A DNA stretch of 64,000 nt. It comes from Planctomycetota bacterium (GTDB lineage: Bacteria; Planctomycetota; Phycisphaerae; Phycisphaerales; SM1A02). Positions 12,334 to 36,840 of the stretch are shown here, piece by piece. The DNA is taken from assembly GCA_022574595.1 (NCBI GenBank), contig JACZRS010000010.1, forward strand, positions 1 to 64,000. The letters are read 5' to 3'. Made by a program: the position numbers and the translations under genes. Positions within the stretch are counted from its first letter, which is position 1. Each line of letters starts with the position of its first letter. The notes under the pieces were generated by a model, which did no database searches, was not told the origin of the DNA, and saw only the letters and a list, made by a program, of their open reading frames with translations.

Positions 12334-12550
12334 GGAGTAATCAGCTATCCGCGGTCAGCAAAAGAGGATCTTATTAACTTTTTCTCCTGTGTGAGGGCCT
12401 TTCTTATCCCAATATCACGCTCCTAAGTAGAGCTTCTTCAATTTACAATCTACTCAGCTGCACTAATCTGTAACATTGGTATCATGCGTCTACGATGTGA
12501 TATGCTTAATCTTCTACGATGTATGCAACCTTATTGGATCGGACTTACGC

Positions 12551-13516
12551 ATGGATCCCGCTTGCAAACTGATTGCCAGAAAGATGTTCATGCTCTGTGT
12601 TCTTCGGGCAAAGGGTGCTGAATACCAGCTACTTTTTGAACGAGTCATGCAATACAGAGAGCCGAAGTTTGTTCCAATAAAACCTTATGGGAAGATCGGC
12701 GACCGTGGCAACGATGGTTATATCCCATCAACAGGTATTTATTTTCAGGTCTATGCACCCGAAGAACCGGCAGCACCGCGCAATGTAGTAACCGCAGTAG
12801 AGAAGGCTGCAGAAGATTTCAATAAACTCCTTGAGCATTGGAGCGAATCAGCTCCCGTTCAAGGATATCGCTTCGTCTATAACGATAGATACTATGGGAG
12901 CCCACAGCCTGTCGAAATGGCTCTTGCGACCATTCGTAACAACCATGATGTTGACGCATCTGTGTTCCTCGCAAAGGATTTGGAGAATGAAGCAATGGAA
13001 CTTGATGACGACCAGCTGTTTGCAATCCTCGAAGCTCCGATTCCAGAAGCAAACCTGCTCGCATCCATCGACTTCAGCGTGCTTCGCGATGTAATAGATT
13101 ATATACTCAAAACCAAGAGCCCAGTAACTGCTTCTAATCTAAAGGCACCAGTGTTTGAAGAGAAGATCGCGTTCAATGGATTGACTAGTGTTGTAGCAAA
13201 CCTACTTACAGGCGGATCATACCAAAGCGATGCTATAACAGATTATTTCTCTAAGAACTCGACCTTCGCACGACAGCAGCTTCGCGATGAGCTTGCTTCT
13301 AAATACATGGAATCAAAGACGAGAATTAAGAAACTTACAGATGAAGACCTTAAAGCTGGAGATCTAGTGTTTTTTGATCTATTGGAACTGATCACGCCCT
13401 GTGGAGCAGAGATGACGCAATCGCAGCACGCTGTTGCACAGGAAGCAGCGATCGTAGTAATGGCTTTCTATTTTGAGGCTTGCGACATTTTCGAGGACCC
13501 TAATGCTATTGCCTGA
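12551..13516 (+). CDS. ABC-3C system, nuclease-like effector component
   Basis: 321 residues from the ATG at 12551 (MDPACKLIARK); earlier in-frame starts would add an unlikely 25-residue leader. The N-terminal part has PYGKIGDRGNDGY (about residues 45-57) and, after a turn, YFQVYAPEEP (about 64-73). This acidic-then-Q-x-Y pattern matches the restriction-endonuclease-like domain at the front of ABC-3C effectors. The rest is helical and probably binds the other two components. ABC-3C (ABC three-component) systems are conflict operons made of an effector, a small middle component and an SMC-like ATPase that triggers the effector. The next gene starts 14 bp before this one ends, which indicates translational coupling. 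Family placement rests on motif and operon order. Confidence 0.78.
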   Translation: MDPACKLIARKMFMLCVLRAKGAEYQLLFERVMQYREPKFVPIKPYGKIGDRGNDGYIPSTGIYFQVYAPEEPAAPRNVVTAVEKAAEDFNKLLEHWSESAPVQGYRFVYNDRYYGSPQPVEMALATIRNNHDVDASVFLAKDLENEAMELDDDQLFAILEAPIPEANLLASIDFSVLRDVIDYILKTKSPVTASNLKAPVFEEKIAFNGLTSVVANLLTGGSYQSDAITDYFSKNSTFARQQLRDELASKYMESKTRIKKLTDEDLKAGDLVFFDLLELITPCGAEMTQSQHAVAQEAAIVVMAFYFEACDIFEDPNAIA

Positions 13517-13751
13517 AAAACACATCTGTCTTGCGGAATCAATACTAGGCTTAGGTGCCTTCATTATCGAGCAGCTAGATAGAGCCCGGTCCGTTGATCA
13601 GCTTCATGATCGTGTTTCTGAAGCGTGTGAAGGTCCCGAACTCCCTGCATACCATGATTTCGACTCGATCCTCCTTGCCGTACTTTTCCTGTTTTCAATC
13701 GGTGCGGTTGAAATGACTAACACCGGGAGCATTCGCCGATGCGCCTCCTGA
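13503..13751 (+). CDS. ABC-3C system, middle component
   Basis: 82 residues from the ATG at 13503. It opens MLLPEKHICLAESILGLGAF and ends with AVLFLFSIGAVEM, the layout of the small middle component of ABC-3C operons (the MC6 group is closest by eye): LLP.KHI..., a first helix, a Trp/Leu-rich linker region and a final LLF.IGAIE. In these operons the middle component is thought to connect effector and ATPase. It overlaps the upstream gene by 14 bp and the downstream gene by 13 bp, so the three proteins are made together. The short length is normal for the family. Confidence 0.78.
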   Translation: MLLPEKHICLAESILGLGAFIIEQLDRARSVDQLHDRVSEACEGPELPAYHDFDSILLAVLFLFSIGAVEMTNTGSIRRCAS

Positions 13752-15481
13752 AATTGTCAGCGAACAAGTCATCCTTCCGTACGGTTACCTTCAACCCTAC
13801 GGGCCTATCGGTTGTTGTGGCGGAGCAGAAATCTGATAGATCTTCGCGAACTAAAACTTACAACGGGGTCGGAAAATCGCTGCTGCTCGAGTTACTCGGC
13901 TACTGTCTGGGGTCGAACAAAAGGGCCGCATTTGAAAGGCATCTTAAAGGTTGGGTATTTAATTTGTCTGTAGAGATTGAGGGTACAACGCACAATATTT
14001 CCCGGAGTGCCGACAAACCCAAAGAGATCACCCTCGATGGAGACGAAATCACTCTGCCGAAGCTTCGATCTTTCCTCGAAGACGCCTTGTTTGAAGTAGT
14101 ACCGAATATCGATTTTATATCGTTCAGATCAATCATACAACGTTTTATTCGCTCAGGCCGCAGTGCTTATGTCGATTTCTCGTACGCAAGTGAGGGAGAA
14201 AACAAGAAGCCTTACGGCGCGATGCTCCGAAGCGCATTCTTGCTCGGACTTGATCTCAATCTCGCGCGTAAGAAATACGATCTACGAAACCGGAAAACTA
14301 AGCTCAAAGATACAATGAAACAGTTGGAAGAGGAGCCACTATTCGCTGAACTAATGGCGCAAGGCACCGTTGACATCGAACTAGCTGCACTGGTTGAACG
14401 TGTCGCAAAATTGCAGCAAGACCTAGCGTCGTTCCGAGTCGCTGAGGACTATTATGAGATTGAACTAGCTGCCGACGAAATCAAACGCGATCTTAATCGA
14501 GTTCGCCGAGAGACGATCAAACTTAATGGCGCGATAGCGCAAATAGATCGGAGTCTTCAAAGCAAAGGCGATCTGCCGCCTGAACGTGTCTTTCAACTTT
14601 ATAAGGAGGCGCAAGCTGCACTGCCTAGCTCTCTCCAGCATAAAATCGAGGAGGTCATTGCATTCCAGCAGGATCTTCAAAAAAAGCGAGTTTATCGTCT
14701 TACAAAAGAACGCCAGCGACTCAACCATGAACTTTTGGAGCAGCAAGGGAAAGTGAAGTTAACCGGAGATCGGCTCGACCAAAAGCTCAAGTACCTTAGT
14801 GAGCATAAGGCGCTGGATGAGTATGTTGGCGTTACTGGTGAATTGGCAGAAGTTCAGCTAAGGGTTGCAAAGTTAGAAGCATCTAGGGCACTTCGTAATA
14901 AGGTGGATCGTGAATTATTGACAATTGATCGAGATCTTGCAGAAGAGAACATTCGGACAGACGATTACTTGCAAACGGCTAGCGCCTTGATCGATGAGGC
15001 AAGCGCTTTGTTCCGGTCCTATGGCCGGGAATTGTATGGCTCACGTACCACCGGTCTTTCTATAACTAACGATTCGGGAGACAACCAGCAGAGGTATCAA
15101 ATTGAAGCACACATCAGCTCAGACGCCGCAGAAGGTATCAACGAGGCAAAGATCTTTTGCTATGACATGACGATTCTCGTGCTTCATCGGGGCCACCGAT
15201 CCCAGTTTTTAGCACACGATAGCAGCTTGTTTGGGCCTATTGATCCGCGACAAAGACTAGCGATGATTCAAATAGCTGACCGAGTGAGTCGAGAATTCGG
15301 TATGCAGTACATTGCGATGCTGAATTCTCACGATATTACATCAATTAAAGAGCAGACCGATCTAGAAAGTGAGGAAAGCGATCGACTATTTGGTAATAAT
15401 AGTGTAGTGCTACGACTCACCGATGGATCACCAAGAGATAAGCTTCTCGGCATCGATGTAGATATGGATTACACAAAATGA
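13739..15481 (+). CDS. ABC-3C system, SMC-like ATPase (DUF2326 type)
   Basis: 580 residues. The N-terminal half-ATPase has the loop YNGVGKSLLLELLGYCLG (Walker A, about residues 41-58). A long coiled-coil with many charged heptads follows (about 180-440), and then the second ATPase half, with FLAHDSSLFGPIDPRQ (about 493-508) and EFGMQYIAMLNSHD. This is the architecture of the DUF2326/SMC-like ATPase of ABC-3C systems and of RecN/SMC relatives. It probably senses invading DNA or DNA ends and licenses the effector encoded two genes upstream. All motifs look intact and no frame damage is visible, so the three-gene operon is probably functional. Confidence 0.85.
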   Translation: MRLLKLSANKSSFRTVTFNPTGLSVVVAEQKSDRSSRTKTYNGVGKSLLLELLGYCLGSNKRAAFERHLKGWVFNLSVEIEGTTHNISRSADKPKEITLDGDEITLPKLRSFLEDALFEVVPNIDFISFRSIIQRFIRSGRSAYVDFSYASEGENKKPYGAMLRSAFLLGLDLNLARKKYDLRNRKTKLKDTMKQLEEEPLFAELMAQGTVDIELAALVERVAKLQQDLASFRVAEDYYEIELAADEIKRDLNRVRRETIKLNGAIAQIDRSLQSKGDLPPERVFQLYKEAQAALPSSLQHKIEEVIAFQQDLQKKRVYRLTKERQRLNHELLEQQGKVKLTGDRLDQKLKYLSEHKALDEYVGVTGELAEVQLRVAKLEASRALRNKVDRELLTIDRDLAEENIRTDDYLQTASALIDEASALFRSYGRELYGSRTTGLSITNDSGDNQQRYQIEAHISSDAAEGINEAKIFCYDMTILVLHRGHRSQFLAHDSSLFGPIDPRQRLAMIQIADRVSREFGMQYIAMLNSHDITSIKEQTDLESEESDRLFGNNSVVLRLTDGSPRDKLLGIDVDMDYTK

Positions 15482-15515: not shown

Positions 15516-15656
15516 CTACTTCTTCAAAACCCGATTTGCGATCTTTTCTAGGTGGTAGCGTGCCCAATTGCTCAACGGCCGCCCCTCAGCTTTCGCGGCT
15601 TGGCGTAACAAATCTAGTTGCTTCTTAGTGAGGCGAACTTTTTTCTCTTTATCGCC
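15516..15656 (-). pseudogene. Remnant of a small ribbon-helix-helix-like protein
   Basis: The last ~46 codons of a minus-strand frame read KVRLTKKQLDLLRQAAKAEG and then RPLSNWARYHLEKIA. This is the strand-helix-helix pattern of small CopG/DUF1778-like antitoxins, which bind DNA as dimers. No start codon precedes it in a sensible place: upstream of GDKEKK the frame runs into the 35-bp repeat and other intergenic repeats for ~90 codons. The 5' end was therefore probably removed when the repeat region formed. No toxin gene is adjacent. Confidence 0.5.
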
Positions 15657-15671
15657 AGGGAAGATAAGGTG

Positions 15672-15706
15672 ACGGGAGTCGTTTTTTCTTGGGTGGAGTT
15701 TGTTGC
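15672..15706. repeat. 35-bp direct repeat, right copy
   Basis: Same orientation as 11355-11389, one mismatch in 35. The two copies bracket the 16S fragment, repeats R6/R7 and the whole ABC-3C operon (4.3 kb). Confidence 0.85.
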
Positions 15707-15723
15707 AGCAGTGGGGGGAGGAG

Positions 15724-15884
15724 AAACGTCGCAACCGAAGGTACCCGCGCATGCGGCAATGTCGAAACGTCAAAACGTCAAAATTAAGAGAGTCTTGAGT
15801 CCCGCCTTGGCGGATTCCGAGCAACCTGAGGGGTGAGTCTTGGAAAGAAAACGTCGCAACCGAAGGTACCCGCGCATGCGGCAA
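15724..15884. repeat. Two copies of a 36-bp repeat
   Basis: AAACGTCGCAACCGAAGG followed by TACCCGCGCATGCGGCAA occurs at 15724-15759 and 15849-15884 without a mismatch. GTCGAAA follows one base later in both. The GCGCATGC part is self-complementary. Confidence 0.85.
15761..15783. repeat. Right arm of the 23-bp inverted repeat around the ABC-3C operon
   Basis: Exact reverse complement of 12198-12220 (TTTTGACG words). The arms lie about 350 bp before and 280 bp after the operon. Confidence 0.8.
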
Positions 15885-15907
15885 GGTCGAAAAATAGTCT
15901 TGAGGTG

Positions 15908-15960
15908 TGAGTCTTGAGGCATGAGGCATGAGGCATCAGCTATCAGCTATCAGCTTTCAA
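15908..15960. repeat. GAGGCAT and CAGCTAT heptamer repeats
   Basis: Tandem seven-base words: GAGGCAT three times, then CAGCTAT twice and one CAGCTTT. They belong to the short tandem heptamer class; related AGCT words are at 11834-11870. Confidence 0.65.
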
Positions 15961-16064
15961 CTCATGACTCCCGCCATGGCGGATTCCGAGCAACCTGAAA
16001 CCTAACTTCTATTATCTCCGTGGCTCTCCGTGGCCCTCCGTGTTTCAAAATCCCCCTTTTTCCC

Positions 16065-16904
16065 TTAAGACTCAGGGCTCGTCTTGCGTACCTGGCCGTA
16101 GCGGAGCTTAAGACACTTGCGGCAGACTAGTTTGCGCTCGGCGCGGAATAGTAAGCCGTAGCGGTTTATGAGGGATGCGCGATGGGCCATGAGGGATGGT
16201 GGTAGGGGAGTGTGATTTAATTGTTGATGAGTGTCGAGCTGGTTTAGCCAGGCTTCGGCCAGGTCGGCATCTAGTGCTTCTGCCTTGGTGCAAAGTGTGA
16301 TGAATAATTTCAGGGAACGGCCCTGGCAGGAAGAAGAACCCACCCCCTTGCCCCCTCCCTTAAAGGGAGGGGGAATAAGAGATGGAGAGTTGGGGCATAT
16401 AAGGAAATGTTGTGCGAGGTTTTTGTGGAGGCGTTGGCGTTCTATGCGGATGGTTTGTTGCCAGGATTCCCATAGGCCTAGCATTTTTGTTCTTGTTGCG
16501 CCTTTGTTGGGATTTGAGGAGAAGAAAGAACCCACCCCCTTGCCCCCTCCCTTAAAGGGAGGGGGAATAAGACCCTGAAACCTGACTCCCGCCACGGCGG
16601 ATTCCGAGCAACCTGATTCCTGACCCCTTTCTTTCATGGCATTTGTTTTTGTTGTGCGCTTATCACCTTGCAGTTGGTGAGGGTGGTGTTTGTCCATTAA
16701 TTGTGTTAGGAAACGCGCATTGATTGTTATGTCGCTTGCGGCTTCGCGCTTGCCACGAGAGAATAATTTGAATTCAGCATGTGGCCAGAGGCTTGATGCT
16801 TTTAGTTCGAAGCAGGCGGAGCGATCGACTTTGCCAGAGCGATTGAGCCAGCTTTGTTTAGTGTTGAGCGTGCCAAGAGTTGGGGGGTCAAAAAAAGTAG
16901 TCAT
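16065..16904 (-). CDS. Unknown protein with in-frame repeat insertions
   Basis: 280 residues from the ATG at 16904 (MTTFFDPPTLGTLNTKQSWL). The frame is open further up to 17123, but that would overlap the divergent SDR gene. The chain has three plausible parts: an N-terminal region with FELKASSLWPHAEFKLFSRG, a middle helix (MLGLWESWQQTIRIERQRLH), and a C-terminal part with LVCRKCLKLRYGQ, which could bind metal. Between them lie two identical segments SLIPPPFKGGGKGVGS or LIPPPFKGGGKGVGS and one SGCSESAVAGVRFQ, all encoded by intergenic-type palindromic repeats. The frame survives every insertion. I do not recognise the family; it could also be a slowly decaying gene. Confidence 0.5.
   Translation of the reverse strand: MTTFFDPPTLGTLNTKQSWLNRSGKVDRSACFELKASSLWPHAEFKLFSRGKREAASDITINARFLTQLMDKHHPHQLQGDKRTTKTNAMKERGQESGCSESAVAGVRFQGLIPPPFKGGGKGVGSFFSSNPNKGATRTKMLGLWESWQQTIRIERQRLHKNLAQHFLICPNSPSLIPPPFKGGGKGVGSSSCQGRSLKLFITLCTKAEALDADLAEAWLNQLDTHQQLNHTPLPPSLMAHRASLINRYGLLFRAERKLVCRKCLKLRYGQVRKTSPES
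16334..16572. repeat. Two identical 47-bp palindromic repeats
   Basis: 16334-16380 and 16526-16572 are identical. The core CCCCCTCCCTTAAAGGGAGG contains a CCCTCCCTT/AAGGGAGGG dyad around TA. The spacing is 192 bp, a multiple of three, and both read as LIPPPFKGGGKGVGS on the minus strand. Confidence 0.85.
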
Positions 16905-17101: not shown

Positions 17102-17914
17102 ATGTTTCATAGATATTCTGCAAGTAAATTGCGATTGAATTGGCTGTGTGTTTTCTTAGCTATTACATTTTTTGCGGTGCTTAGTGGTTTTGCTAGTCAG
17201 GATTCAAAGTTCATATCAAAACCTTCAGCATCACTTGATAAACCTACAGTATTAATTACGGGCGCAAACCGTGGTTTGGGTTTGGAGTTTGCCAAGCAGT
17301 ATCATGAAGCTGGTTACAATGTGATTGCAACGGCGCGCAAACCGGACGCAGCGGAAGAACTAAACGCAATTGGCGTGCAGGTGGAGAAATTAGATGTTAC
17401 AGATGCTGAGAGTGTTGCAAGTCTCGCCAAGCGTTTGGCTGATTTGCCACTTGATATCCTCATAAATAATGCAGGAGTTGGCGGGGCACGCAAATCGATA
17501 GCTGAAGCTGATATAAAAGCCATAGAGCGGATCATTGCGGTTAATACACTTGGACCTATTCGTGTTACGCAAGCTTTGATTGGTAATTTGCGAGAAGGTG
17601 AGCAGAAGTTAATTATTAATATTACGAGCTTGATGGGTAGTATCGAGCGCAACGCGCGCGGCATTGGTTACGGCTATCGCGAGAGTAAAGCTGCGCTAAA
17701 CATGTTTACCAAGAGTCTATCTAATGAGCTTAAAGACGAGGGGTTTCGGTGTATTGTGATGAGTCCGGGTTGGGTAAGGACGGACATGGGTGGGCCTAAC
17801 GCGAGATTAACGCCCCAGGAGTCTATTAGTGGGATGATTGAGGTAATAAGTGGTTTATCGGCTGAGGATTCCGGTGAGTTTTTCAATCATACAGGCGAGA
17901 AACTACCTTGGTAA
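17102..17914 (+). CDS. Short-chain dehydrogenase/reductase with N-terminal membrane anchor
   Basis: 270 residues. The ATG at 17102 is supported by AAGGAG 7 bases upstream; an in-frame ATG at 17036 lacks one. After a hydrophobic leader (WLCVFLAITFFAVLSGFA, about residues 15-32) comes a complete SDR fold. It has the cofactor loop TGANRGLGL (about 53-61), DVTDAESV, the NNAG motif, the catalytic serine in NITSLMGS and YRESK as the Y-x3-K pair. SDRs oxidise or reduce alcohol/carbonyl groups with NAD(P); the substrate cannot be read from sequence. Because SDRs need cytoplasmic cofactor, the leader is more likely an anchor than an export signal, or the true start lies at the domain itself. The gene stands alone. 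Confidence 0.85.
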   Translation: MFHRYSASKLRLNWLCVFLAITFFAVLSGFASQDSKFISKPSASLDKPTVLITGANRGLGLEFAKQYHEAGYNVIATARKPDAAEELNAIGVQVEKLDVTDAESVASLAKRLADLPLDILINNAGVGGARKSIAEADIKAIERIIAVNTLGPIRVTQALIGNLREGEQKLIINITSLMGSIERNARGIGYGYRESKAALNMFTKSLSNELKDEGFRCIVMSPGWVRTDMGGPNARLTPQESISGMIEVISGLSAEDSGEFFNHTGEKLPW

Positions 17915-34912: not shown

Positions 34913-36072
34913 CTGCCCTGCATAAGGTACATGATGCGCGTCGAGCTTAGATCGTTGACAAATGATCGAATCGCATCCGCATCAAGCTGGGCGTTTAGCG
35001 GAGATTGAGTATTTGCCATCATCTTGTCCATAAATGATGGAGGCTGGCGCAGCATTACTACTGTCGCGCTACCTTTTCGCAAGCCTTTAGCCTTCTCCGC
35101 AGCGGCAATTGCATCATCAAGATATCCGACCGCGTCGATCAAACCGTTTTTTAGTGCTTCATCGGCAGTATAAATCGAGCCGTCCGCAAGCGCATCAATA
35201 GTAGTGGTGCTGGTGATAACAGATTTACGTCCATCGCGCACGCGCTGATTGAAAATATCATACATTTCATCGAGCATGGCCTGGACCTTTTGGCGATCCT
35301 TTTCATCCCAACTTCTAAATATATCGTTTGCAGTTGCTTTATTGGGTGAGCCTGATGCTATGAGAGTTACAGGCTCGATGCCGACTTTGTCCATCAGCCC
35401 TTCTAAAGTGAAAATTTGTGCAATAACGCCGATACTGCCTGTGATGCATGTTGGTTGAGCGATGATTTGATCTGCAGCGCATGAGATGTAGTACCCGCCG
35501 GATGCTGCAACTGATCCATAGCTTGCGATTACGGGGTAGCCTGCATCTGTTAAGCGTTTAATTTCATACCAGATTTCATCGGATGATGTTACGCCGCCGC
35601 CGGGTGAATCCACGCGCAGCACTACTGTTTTAATGTGTGAGTTCTTTTTATCTAAAATGTGCTCAACCGCATCATGAACATAAGCTGCCTGCGATTGATT
35701 TATTATTCCAACCACGGGGATAACTGCGACAACATTTCTTTTATCGCCGGTACGGTGTGTTGCTTCAACAATTGCTGTTGGTACAACGCCTCTGGCACCG
35801 AACATCATCATCATCCCGAAGCCTAGACCGATGAAGAATACAGCACCGAATAGAAATAGGCCCAGCATGAAGAAGATTGCTCGTGATATGCCGCCGGACT
35901 TTGTGACTATTTGTACTATTTGTGGTTGGTTTGCTTGTGGTTGTGGTTGATTTGGCATTGGTCTTACTCCAGTGATCGCAGCGGGTATGTCGCTCATTGG
36001 GTTAACGGGTCGTGGGCTATCTGGTGGGCCTGATGGAACTTCCGGGGGTTCCGGGGGCGGGGGTTGGTTCAT
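34909..36072 (-). CDS. sppA: Signal peptide peptidase SppA, S49 family
   Basis: 387 residues. After a proline-rich cytoplasmic head and a membrane anchor (AIFFMLGLFLFGAVFFIGLG, about 65-85) comes a single S49 protease domain. The serine lies in SYGSVAASGGYYISCAADQI and the lysine region in IVAQPTCITGSIGV-like sequence (here IIAQPTCITGSIGVIAQIF); VVLRVDSPGGGVTSSDEI is the third hallmark. SppA cuts left-over signal peptides in the membrane. This is the short, one-domain form (E. coli has two tandem domains). The gene leads the unit with the DUF4159 gene, and a divergent methyltransferase gene starts 135 bp away. Confidence 0.92.
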   Translation of the reverse strand: MNQPPPPEPPEVPSGPPDSPRPVNPMSDIPAAITGVRPMPNQPQPQANQPQIVQIVTKSGGISRAIFFMLGLFLFGAVFFIGLGFGMMMMFGARGVVPTAIVEATHRTGDKRNVVAVIPVVGIINQSQAAYVHDAVEHILDKKNSHIKTVVLRVDSPGGGVTSSDEIWYEIKRLTDAGYPVIASYGSVAASGGYYISCAADQIIAQPTCITGSIGVIAQIFTLEGLMDKVGIEPVTLIASGSPNKATANDIFRSWDEKDRQKVQAMLDEMYDIFNQRVRDGRKSVITSTTTIDALADGSIYTADEALKNGLIDAVGYLDDAIAAAEKAKGLRKGSATVVMLRQPPSFMDKMMANTQSPLNAQLDADAIRSFVNDLSSTRIMYLMQGR

Positions 36073-36207
36073 TGGGGGATCCTCGTTTAGTAGGCTGTTT
36101 TCTTATCCTTACTTCGTATCGTAGCAGGGTTCGGTTTGGACTGAATTATGTAGATTCGTGCAATAGGCCACATAAAGCACCTCGGTCGGCCTAAAGTACC
36201 CATAGCT

Positions 36208-36840
36208 ATGACTAAACAAACCGGCGAAGACTTCCTTAAACCATACCGTGAAGCCGTTGAAAAGTTCGGCCCATCGTTTGAAGCCACACTCTGGCACAGC
36301 CGCGAGGCACAGGAGCTTCGCTTCGATGTGATGATCGATCTTGCGAACTTTGGCGACTGCGTTGTAGTAGATGCCGGCTGCGGGCAAGGTGATTTCGCTG
36401 CCAGATTGCTTGAACGTGAGATTAGTTTTTCACGTTATGTTGGGATTGATGCGCTAGGGGAGATGATCGAAGTAGCATCCAAGCGCGGCCTGCCTCGCTG
36501 TCAATTTGCATCTAGTGATTTGATCGGTTCGCAATCTGTTTTTAAAGAGTACGAGCCAGACTACGTTTGTTTCTCCGGCACGCTTAACACCATGACCCAA
36601 CAAGCAGCCCAACAGCTTGTTAAACAGGCGTTTGATGCATCAGCGCAGGGCGTGGTGTTTAATTTCCTATCCAATCGACATCACAAGCGATATGAAGGAA
36701 AGGATCTAACACCGGCAAGTCGTTTCGATACGCTGGGAATGTTGGACTGGGCATTAGGGCTATCCAGCCGCGTAAGTTTCACCCAGGCATATCTGGACGG
36801 CCACGATGCAACGATAATGATTGAGCATGATGGGGAGTGA
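36208..36840 (+). CDS. Class I SAM-dependent methyltransferase
   Basis: 210 residues. The SAM-binding motif I is CVVVDAGCGQGDFAARLLER (about residues 50-69), the acidic end of strand 2 is in YVGIDALGEMIEVA, and strand 4 is in YEPDYVCFSGTLNTMT. The rest is a normal Rossmann-type methyltransferase fold. There is no motif that names a substrate; NPPY- or DPPY-type base-methylation signatures are absent, so a small molecule or lipid is more likely than DNA. The gene stands alone between divergent sppA and a convergent peptidase gene whose stop is 15 bases away. Confidence 0.82.
   Translation: MTKQTGEDFLKPYREAVEKFGPSFEATLWHSREAQELRFDVMIDLANFGDCVVVDAGCGQGDFAARLLEREISFSRYVGIDALGEMIEVASKRGLPRCQFASSDLIGSQSVFKEYEPDYVCFSGTLNTMTQQAAQQLVKQAFDASAQGVVFNFLSNRHHKRYEGKDLTPASRFDTLGMLDWALGLSSRVSFTQAYLDGHDATIMIEHDGE

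Follow-up and report, generated by a model that had tools for sequence, protein, structure and literature searches.

Palindromic elements lying in frame within an orphan planctomycetal gene and their link to DUF559 nuclease units

An orphan host gene with repeats in two loops

The DNA analysed here, hereafter the window, is a stretch of 64,000 nt from a Planctomycetota bacterium (GTDB order Phycisphaerales; assembly GCA_022574595.1, contig JACZRS010000010.1, positions 1–64,000 of the forward strand). On its minus strand, a frame running from 16904 to 16065 (279 codons counted from the ATG at 16904; hereafter the host gene) holds two copies of a 47-bp palindromic element, at 16526–16572 and 16334–16380, and one REP-like repeat at 16583–16624, all given on the minus strand. 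The two 47-nt copies are 100% identical, lie 192 bp apart from start to start and are both read as LIPPPFKGGGKGVGS; the REP-like repeat is read as CSESAVAGVRFQ. A sequence-only reading of this DNA had described such a pair in one open frame, together with the same translations and a 33-bp element that corresponds to the REP-like repeat, and our coordinates confirm the pair and the translations. When up to three mismatches were allowed, the window held no occurrence of the palindromic core beyond these two, which each match on both strands; none of 100 shuffles reached as many matches. Upstream of the ATG no stop interrupts the frame as far as a TTG at 17123; aligned homologues start near the ATG. 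In what follows, individual loci are labelled L, genomes G, contigs C, and families within the order f1 to f6.

The surroundings are also rich in repeats. Repeat comparison within the window placed two further REP-like copies on the plus strand past the 3′ end of the host gene, at 15965–16006 and, within a small neighbouring ORF (15516–15929, minus strand), at 15796–15837. Small repeats follow one another closely here, on the downstream side of the host gene; among them is a 44-bp direct repeat, 98% identical, at 15724–15767 and 15849–15892. The C-terminus of the small ORF weakly resembles ribbon-helix-helix proteins (E 0.03, short of the cut-off); the N-terminal half spans the 44-bp and REP-like repeats, the true start of the ORF being probably further in. 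Adjoining this locus, 12476–15481 (plus strand) carries two genes, for a CTD10 ABC-3C protein and for a DUF2326 protein, that match PDC-M68A/B, a candidate defence system.

Relatives of the host gene were found by tblastn in 17 of 61 genomes, its own included, and by an alignment-based search in 31 of 301 genomes of the order; the search with alignment A2 gave 11 loci, in Phycisphaerales, Phycisphaeraceae and Planctomycetota MAGs and in one genome labelled Vicinamibacteraceae. The sequence-only reading had allowed that the ORF was there by chance if its flanking parts had no homologue and no transcript covered the frame, and these 31 genomes supply such homologues. The protein belongs to no Pfam or NCBIfam family (single weak matches only). 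Comparison with PHROGs and PADLOC gave nothing of use, tblastn against plasmids and phages gave no match, and scanning genome contigs with the host protein as the sole query recovered no relative. A Foldseek search with the protein model found no match at E 0.001, and the best VIA-align superposition on 97 Foldseek chains (Z 3.9 over 87 residues, rmsd 4.2) was uninformative. Four cysteines (C170, C193, C261 and C264) are invariant or nearly so in the alignment and may form a zinc site. Between the window gene and its homologue L088, differences at codon positions 1, 2 and 3 number 81, 58 and 138 over 240 codons; most changes thus fall at third positions, the pattern expected of a protein under selection. 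Judging from these sequences, the host frame is a real gene of an orphan family.

The repeats occupy two loops of the protein. Loop A, insertion site 1 in the alignments, lies between the conserved SNAM and NPNxGA motifs (residues 91–130; 16515–16634, minus strand) and contains the REP-like repeat and the upstream 47-bp copy. Loop B, insertion site 2, lies between C170-P171 and C193 (residues 172–192; 16329–16391, minus strand) and contains the other copy. In an AlphaFold2 model built with 11 input sequences (mean pLDDT 72.4), the core is confident, and pLDDT falls below 50 only at residues 76–136, 177–192 and 271–276 (segments of at least three residues); both insert loops are accordingly predicted to be disordered.

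Homologues fill the same two loops differently. At loop B, the homologues L088, L089 and L092 simply have CP-x-C, and palindromes are read as NSPSLIPPPFKGGGKGVGSSSC in the window, NSPSLLSPSPLGRGVRGEGSSTSC in L090 and NSLSLSKGEGGGEGSLPSPPGRGVGGEGSQHC in L101. At loop A, where 29 homologues could be parsed and 17 could not (three of those 17 were read by eye), palindromes of a sister family, the GEG type, were seen by eye: two in L090, one in L101 and two in the contig-end fragment L086, with a degenerate one in L091. Loop A of the more distant L106 and L107 carries palindromes resembling the 47-bp type, also judged by eye, as were the simple repeats of L006/L089, L009 and L020. The insert of L014 is a different repeat; its genome holds 41 matches to it on the two strands taken together, some of which overlap, and four of the 41 are within the gene. 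Genome-wide copies were counted for this insert, for the GEG family and for the window elements. Several homologues, for example L010, L012, L013, L016, L026, L068 and L071, have no recognisable repeat in loop A. In L011 (G045) the loop holds a perfect palindrome, judged by eye, with the core GCCGAGGGATGGCCATCCCTCGGC.

Because homologues either lack the inserts or carry other repeats at these places, the window palindromes are best regarded as insertions into a real gene, which tolerates them, as the sequence-only reading had proposed. The window and L090 share the flanking residues NSPSL, which fit either of two histories: their loops may have received independent insertions, or an old insertion may later have exchanged its palindrome. 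L101 and L102 (a second label for the L091 gene) share 91% identity over some 3.9 kb, and yet loop B has two palindromes in one of them and none recognisable in the other, pointing to recent turnover there.

Structure and genomic copies of the palindromes

As DNA, the 47-bp unit can form a hairpin with a 10-bp stem and a 3-nt loop (−12 kcal/mol), more stable than expected on either strand (z −2.75 on the gene strand, −3.38 on the other); on the gene strand the hairpin is followed by a further G-rich arm. The GEG hairpin tested was not significantly stable (z −1.5, with 15 of 200 shuffles as good), and the hairpin potential of the REP-like repeat is ordinary (z 0.22). The REP-like repeat, although correctly placed and translated in the sequence-only reading, has to be separated from the 47-bp elements as a different repeat family.

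None of the inserts breaks the host frame, as had been noticed, but this is no special property of the elements: each of the two element kinds is open in four of six frames, about as many as in shuffled sequences (means 3.8 and 4.1), and we rejected frame openness as a designed feature. We therefore ascribe the unbroken frame to selection on the host protein rather than to the make-up of the element.

In its own genome the 47-bp family has four copies within 3 mismatches of 42, and its 21-base core (at most two mismatches) occurs at 10 places. The exact GEG pattern occurs at 20 places and the REP-like repeat, with three local copies, at 13; the reversed-pattern control gave zero for all three families. 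The two genomic copies nearest to the 47-bp element outside the host gene differ from it at 2 and 3 of 42 positions, while no position distinguishes the two in-gene copies, which makes local copying or conversion likely. The host gene accounts for two of the 10 core places, and a third supplies the final codons of a 3HCDH (3-hydroxyacyl-CoA dehydrogenase) ORF. The element is read as LIPPPFKGGG in the former and as SYSPSLPGRGLGGG in the latter.

GEG copies also lie in frame in genes. Of the 20 in the genome of the window, three fall within a 6-phosphogluconate dehydrogenase gene and an FtsJ-like gene, both with Pfam support, 12 are in no ORF of at least 100 aa, and five are in ORFs that have no family support or were unscanned. 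In G283, 8 of 15 copies fall in Pfam-supported genes or in the host gene, including the linker of a 2-oxoacid dehydrogenase E2 and three kinase ORFs, in one of which four copies precede the kinase domain on its N-terminal side. Of the 17 copies in G308, at least five are in genes: FtsJ, 6PGD, UvrD_C at a contig end, and the host gene twice, the last two being assigned to L090 by sequence and spacing. Overall, the in-frame hosts of the GEG type comprise 6PGD, 2-oxoacid_dh, PALP, Pkinase and FtsJ.

Two further observations were made in the genome of the window. Three similar small ORFs (MAKTKKKRK...; L168, L175 and L178) each have a GEG palindrome just upstream; they are perhaps copies of a duplicated or mobile gene, and the one scanned had no Pfam match. 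Two Y1 RAYT-like genes, L121 and L123 on contigs C21 and C30, have nearby palindromes with arms of 30–35 bp, apparently a separate REP-like system.

Inverted palindromes around DUF559 nuclease genes

The 3HCDH-end copy and its neighbour are the two ends of a larger unit. On contig C8, a gene for DUF559, described in PMC12907096 as a domain of PD-(D/E)XK, Vsr-like nucleases, lies at 36060–36374 between 47-bp elements in opposite orientation at 36009 (minus) and 36433 (plus). The 47-bp family thus brackets a DUF559 gene as an inverted pair, and the whole unit, palindrome, DUF559 and inverted palindrome, spans about 36009–36474 with a flank alignment score of 63. Across 14 genomes, 13 of 15 DUF559 matches in ORFs shorter than 500 aa had an element of the 47-bp or GEG type no more than about 250 bp away, against none of five DUF559 matches in large proteins.

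We extended this to the order by aligning the left flank of each DUF559 locus with the reverse complement of its right flank, taking a score of 40 as the cut-off. The set consisted of 98 strong loci, nearly all from the order, strong being our own cut at E ≤ 1e-12; it holds all such matches listed except two from one genome, together with three further loci. Twenty of the 98 lie in frames longer than 330 aa, hence some are not stand-alone in the strict sense; ORFs of about 300–500 aa with weaker matches were excluded, and six loci were dropped for short flanks or runs of N. Of the 92 usable loci, 75 scored at least 40 and 84 at least 30. With the right flank reversed only or complemented only, 3 and 5 of 92 reached 40. 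DUF559 domains of large proteins, a control of 25 matches that are not all those existing and of which 14 were recognised by HMM, never reached the cut-off: HMM placement gave 0 of 14 (highest 28) and coordinate placement 0 of 25 (highest 23). The flank sequences vary between loci and yet match within a locus, as seen in nine examples. Inward-pointing G-quadruplex motifs occurred in both flanks of 35 of 93 DUF559 loci and in none of 50 control readings (25 loci, both strands), a difference for which base composition is a confounder.

Co-occurrence points the same way with exceptions. Among 301 genomes stratified by five families (Mantel-Haenszel), strong DUF559 and the presence of GEG were associated within families (OR 5.4, p 8e-8), the p-values here and below assuming independent genomes within families, an assumption that fails. 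In f4 the association is reversed (1/2 versus 4/4). Counting against mobilisation by DUF559, a strong DUF559 match is absent from 36 of the 73 genomes that carry GEG (7 in f1, 12 in f2, 4 in f4, 2 in f5 and 11 in f6), and 17 of the 92 loci stay below the flank cut-off. G036 and G008, with eight and six GEG copies, have no DUF559 match at all.

Seven plasmid DUF559 loci, out of 36 matching records, were examined as well. One, L326, is clearly bracketed (score 53), L329 is marginal (37) and five are negative. In L326, from a Sphingomonas plasmid, the DUF559 gene sits between sufB and sufC within inverted palindromes of the same make-up, which suggests, five negatives out of seven notwithstanding, that the link between DUF559 and palindromes reaches beyond the phylum.

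In some loci the nuclease is itself read in frame with a host enzyme. Ten long DUF559-holding ORFs were scanned at E 1e-5, and no intein or splicing (Hint) domain was reported in them. In six of them two stretches also match HMGL-like (PF00682), the better match following DUF559, and the HMGL start VRITDVSPRDGLQNE is visible before DUF559 in the translations of these HMGL-like/DUF559 ORFs. L209 has the first half of FtsJ followed by DUF559; L224 has Eco57I after DUF559, the preceding part having no assigned family; L292 has RNase H after DUF559 and non-matching flanks (score 23); and L229 has DUF559 with no second family. A further three, L234, L261 and L267, resemble HMGL chimeras, as judged by eye only. 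At one FtsJ site, the genome of the window (L169) has palindromes only, with the FtsJ match running across them, and G308 has a full palindrome-DUF559-palindrome cassette at the same place and in the same frame. Read from the two sequences, this short/full pair is the clearest tie of the short palindromes to the nuclease unit, albeit for the GEG sister family. The sequence-only reading had missed that the palindromes are of the kind bracketing small DUF559 genes, that whole cassettes lie in frame, and that the same two loops are hit in several genomes.

Origin of the inserts and comparison with known systems

From this distribution we infer that DUF559 mobilises the palindromes. By a slight balance of probability, the 47-bp elements represent the short form, without the nuclease, of a mobile palindrome family whose full unit is palindrome-DUF559-inverted palindrome. 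In the mechanism that we propose as part of this reading, the DUF559 nuclease would cut or nick the target, and repair of the break would copy in the palindrome or the complete unit. Insertions breaking a needed gene would be lost, and those lying in frame in a flexible loop would persist. The two identical window copies would have arisen by local copying or conversion, and the REP-like repeat would be an independent family in the same tolerant loop. No consistent target-site duplication was seen when the flanks were read by eye only. The earlier claim that the elements can move into genes is borne out for insertion and tolerance, and their movement itself is suggested by the distribution.

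The palindromes might instead spread in other ways, such as replication slippage, hairpin-primed copying or recombination, with DUF559 as a homing-type passenger that repeatedly inserts into them. The 36 GEG-positive genomes and the 17 loci mentioned above would fit such a passenger, and we give this account a real though minor chance. It is opposed by the flanks: both match in inverted orientation, as the ends of a unit should, whereas insertion into one hairpin would split that hairpin, and they differ among loci while matching within each of the nine example loci.

That the palindromes are REPs mobilised by RAYT (Y1 HUH) transposases is improbable. Seven Y1_Tnp matches exist in the genome of the window, the REP/RAYT architecture (PMC2817692) is alike, and within f1 Y1 goes with GEG presence (9/42 versus 1/75, p 0.0004). 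When all families are stratified, however, Y1 is no clear predictor of GEG (OR 1.6, p 0.14). Among the seven Y1 loci, searched 1.5 kb to each side, only L124 has a 47-bp element, on one side and more than 1 kb off with a 3HCDH gene between; hairpin tests on six of the loci showed other palindromes next to the gene in L121 and L123.

Still less credible is an action of the host protein itself on the palindromes, its own gene being marked by them as rayt genes are. The host gene and GEG are associated within families even more strongly than DUF559 and GEG (OR 9.2, p 2e-8; in f1, 7/8 versus 3/109), but in f2 GEG is present in 31 of 117 genomes and the host gene in none, some members of the host family carry unrelated repeats in loop A, and other genes are hit too. 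Finally, it is very improbable that the host frame is a chance ORF or a decayed gene with meaningless inserts: a stop was counted in three of the tblastn matches listed and two of the alignment-search matches listed (that in G283:C43 looks internal, that in G008 is the gene's end) and some matches are fragments, but the family is conserved, its changes fall mostly at third codon positions and the model core is confident.

Returning to mobilisation by DUF559, we tentatively raise a wider possibility, which we hold to be less probable than not: a splicing-free mobile class may invade genes in frame, its Vsr-like nuclease cassette with palindromic ends being read through as a domain inside the host enzyme (HMG-CoA lyase-like, FtsJ-like or methylase), and its short copies may litter the loops of many proteins as a source of new linkers. 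The DUF559 link itself offers a candidate partner for small bacterial palindromes, none having been described in the open-licence literature searched: among such papers, judged by titles and the starts of abstracts, none linked DUF559 to palindromes, and peptide strings such as GEGRGEG returned none. It would make the spread of such repeats testable and would account for repeated peptides such as PLPLGEGRGEG in translated genes; the in-frame cassettes are natural cases of conserved enzymes that apparently tolerate a nuclease domain within them.

By the features tested, the palindromes work like REP/RAYT and Rickettsia palindromic elements (RPEs) and are members of neither. RPEs are described, in PMC10969869, as short palindromic repeats lying in frame in unrelated protein genes, which tolerate them. 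The likeness to RPEs noted from the sequence alone holds for this behaviour, since in-frame insertion into unrelated protein-coding genes was found here for the 47-bp type (host gene and 3HCDH end) and the GEG type (five gene kinds). It fails for length and conserved peptide: RPEs are about 150 bp with a conserved peptide, whereas the elements here are 40–50 bp, are read in frames that differ between genes and have a DUF559-bearing long form. RPEs are not known to have a nuclease partner.

Like REP/RAYT, the system here has palindromes scattered through the genome, an inverted pair of which encloses a nuclease gene. The partner here is DUF559 rather than a Y1 HUH transposase, and the elements, nuclease included, lie in frame inside genes; with 1.5 kb considered on each side, none of the seven Y1 loci of the genome lies between copies of the 47-bp or GEG pattern. 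For REP/RAYT, the presence of the partner predicts the abundance of the repeat, as stated in PMC2817692. GTAG- and CGTC-tagged REPs also occur inside genes and in Planctomycetes, the CGTC ones having no known mover, according to PMC3733652; the stems of CGTC REPs given there are 8–9 bp against 10 bp here, and neither tetramer, whose presence at the hairpin foot is the criterion used there, occurs on either strand of the 47 bases. The enterobacterial RU-1 to RU-3, presented in the abstract portion of PMC2759123 as small mobile repeats that carry ORFs and are found inside genes, measure 103–168 bp against 47 bp here, and that portion names no DUF559 partner. Inteins and free-standing homing endonucleases resemble the long form in having a nuclease ORF in frame inside a conserved gene; the long form differs in that no splicing domain was reported in its ten long ORFs and in that its ends are palindromes of the kind also found as short copies.
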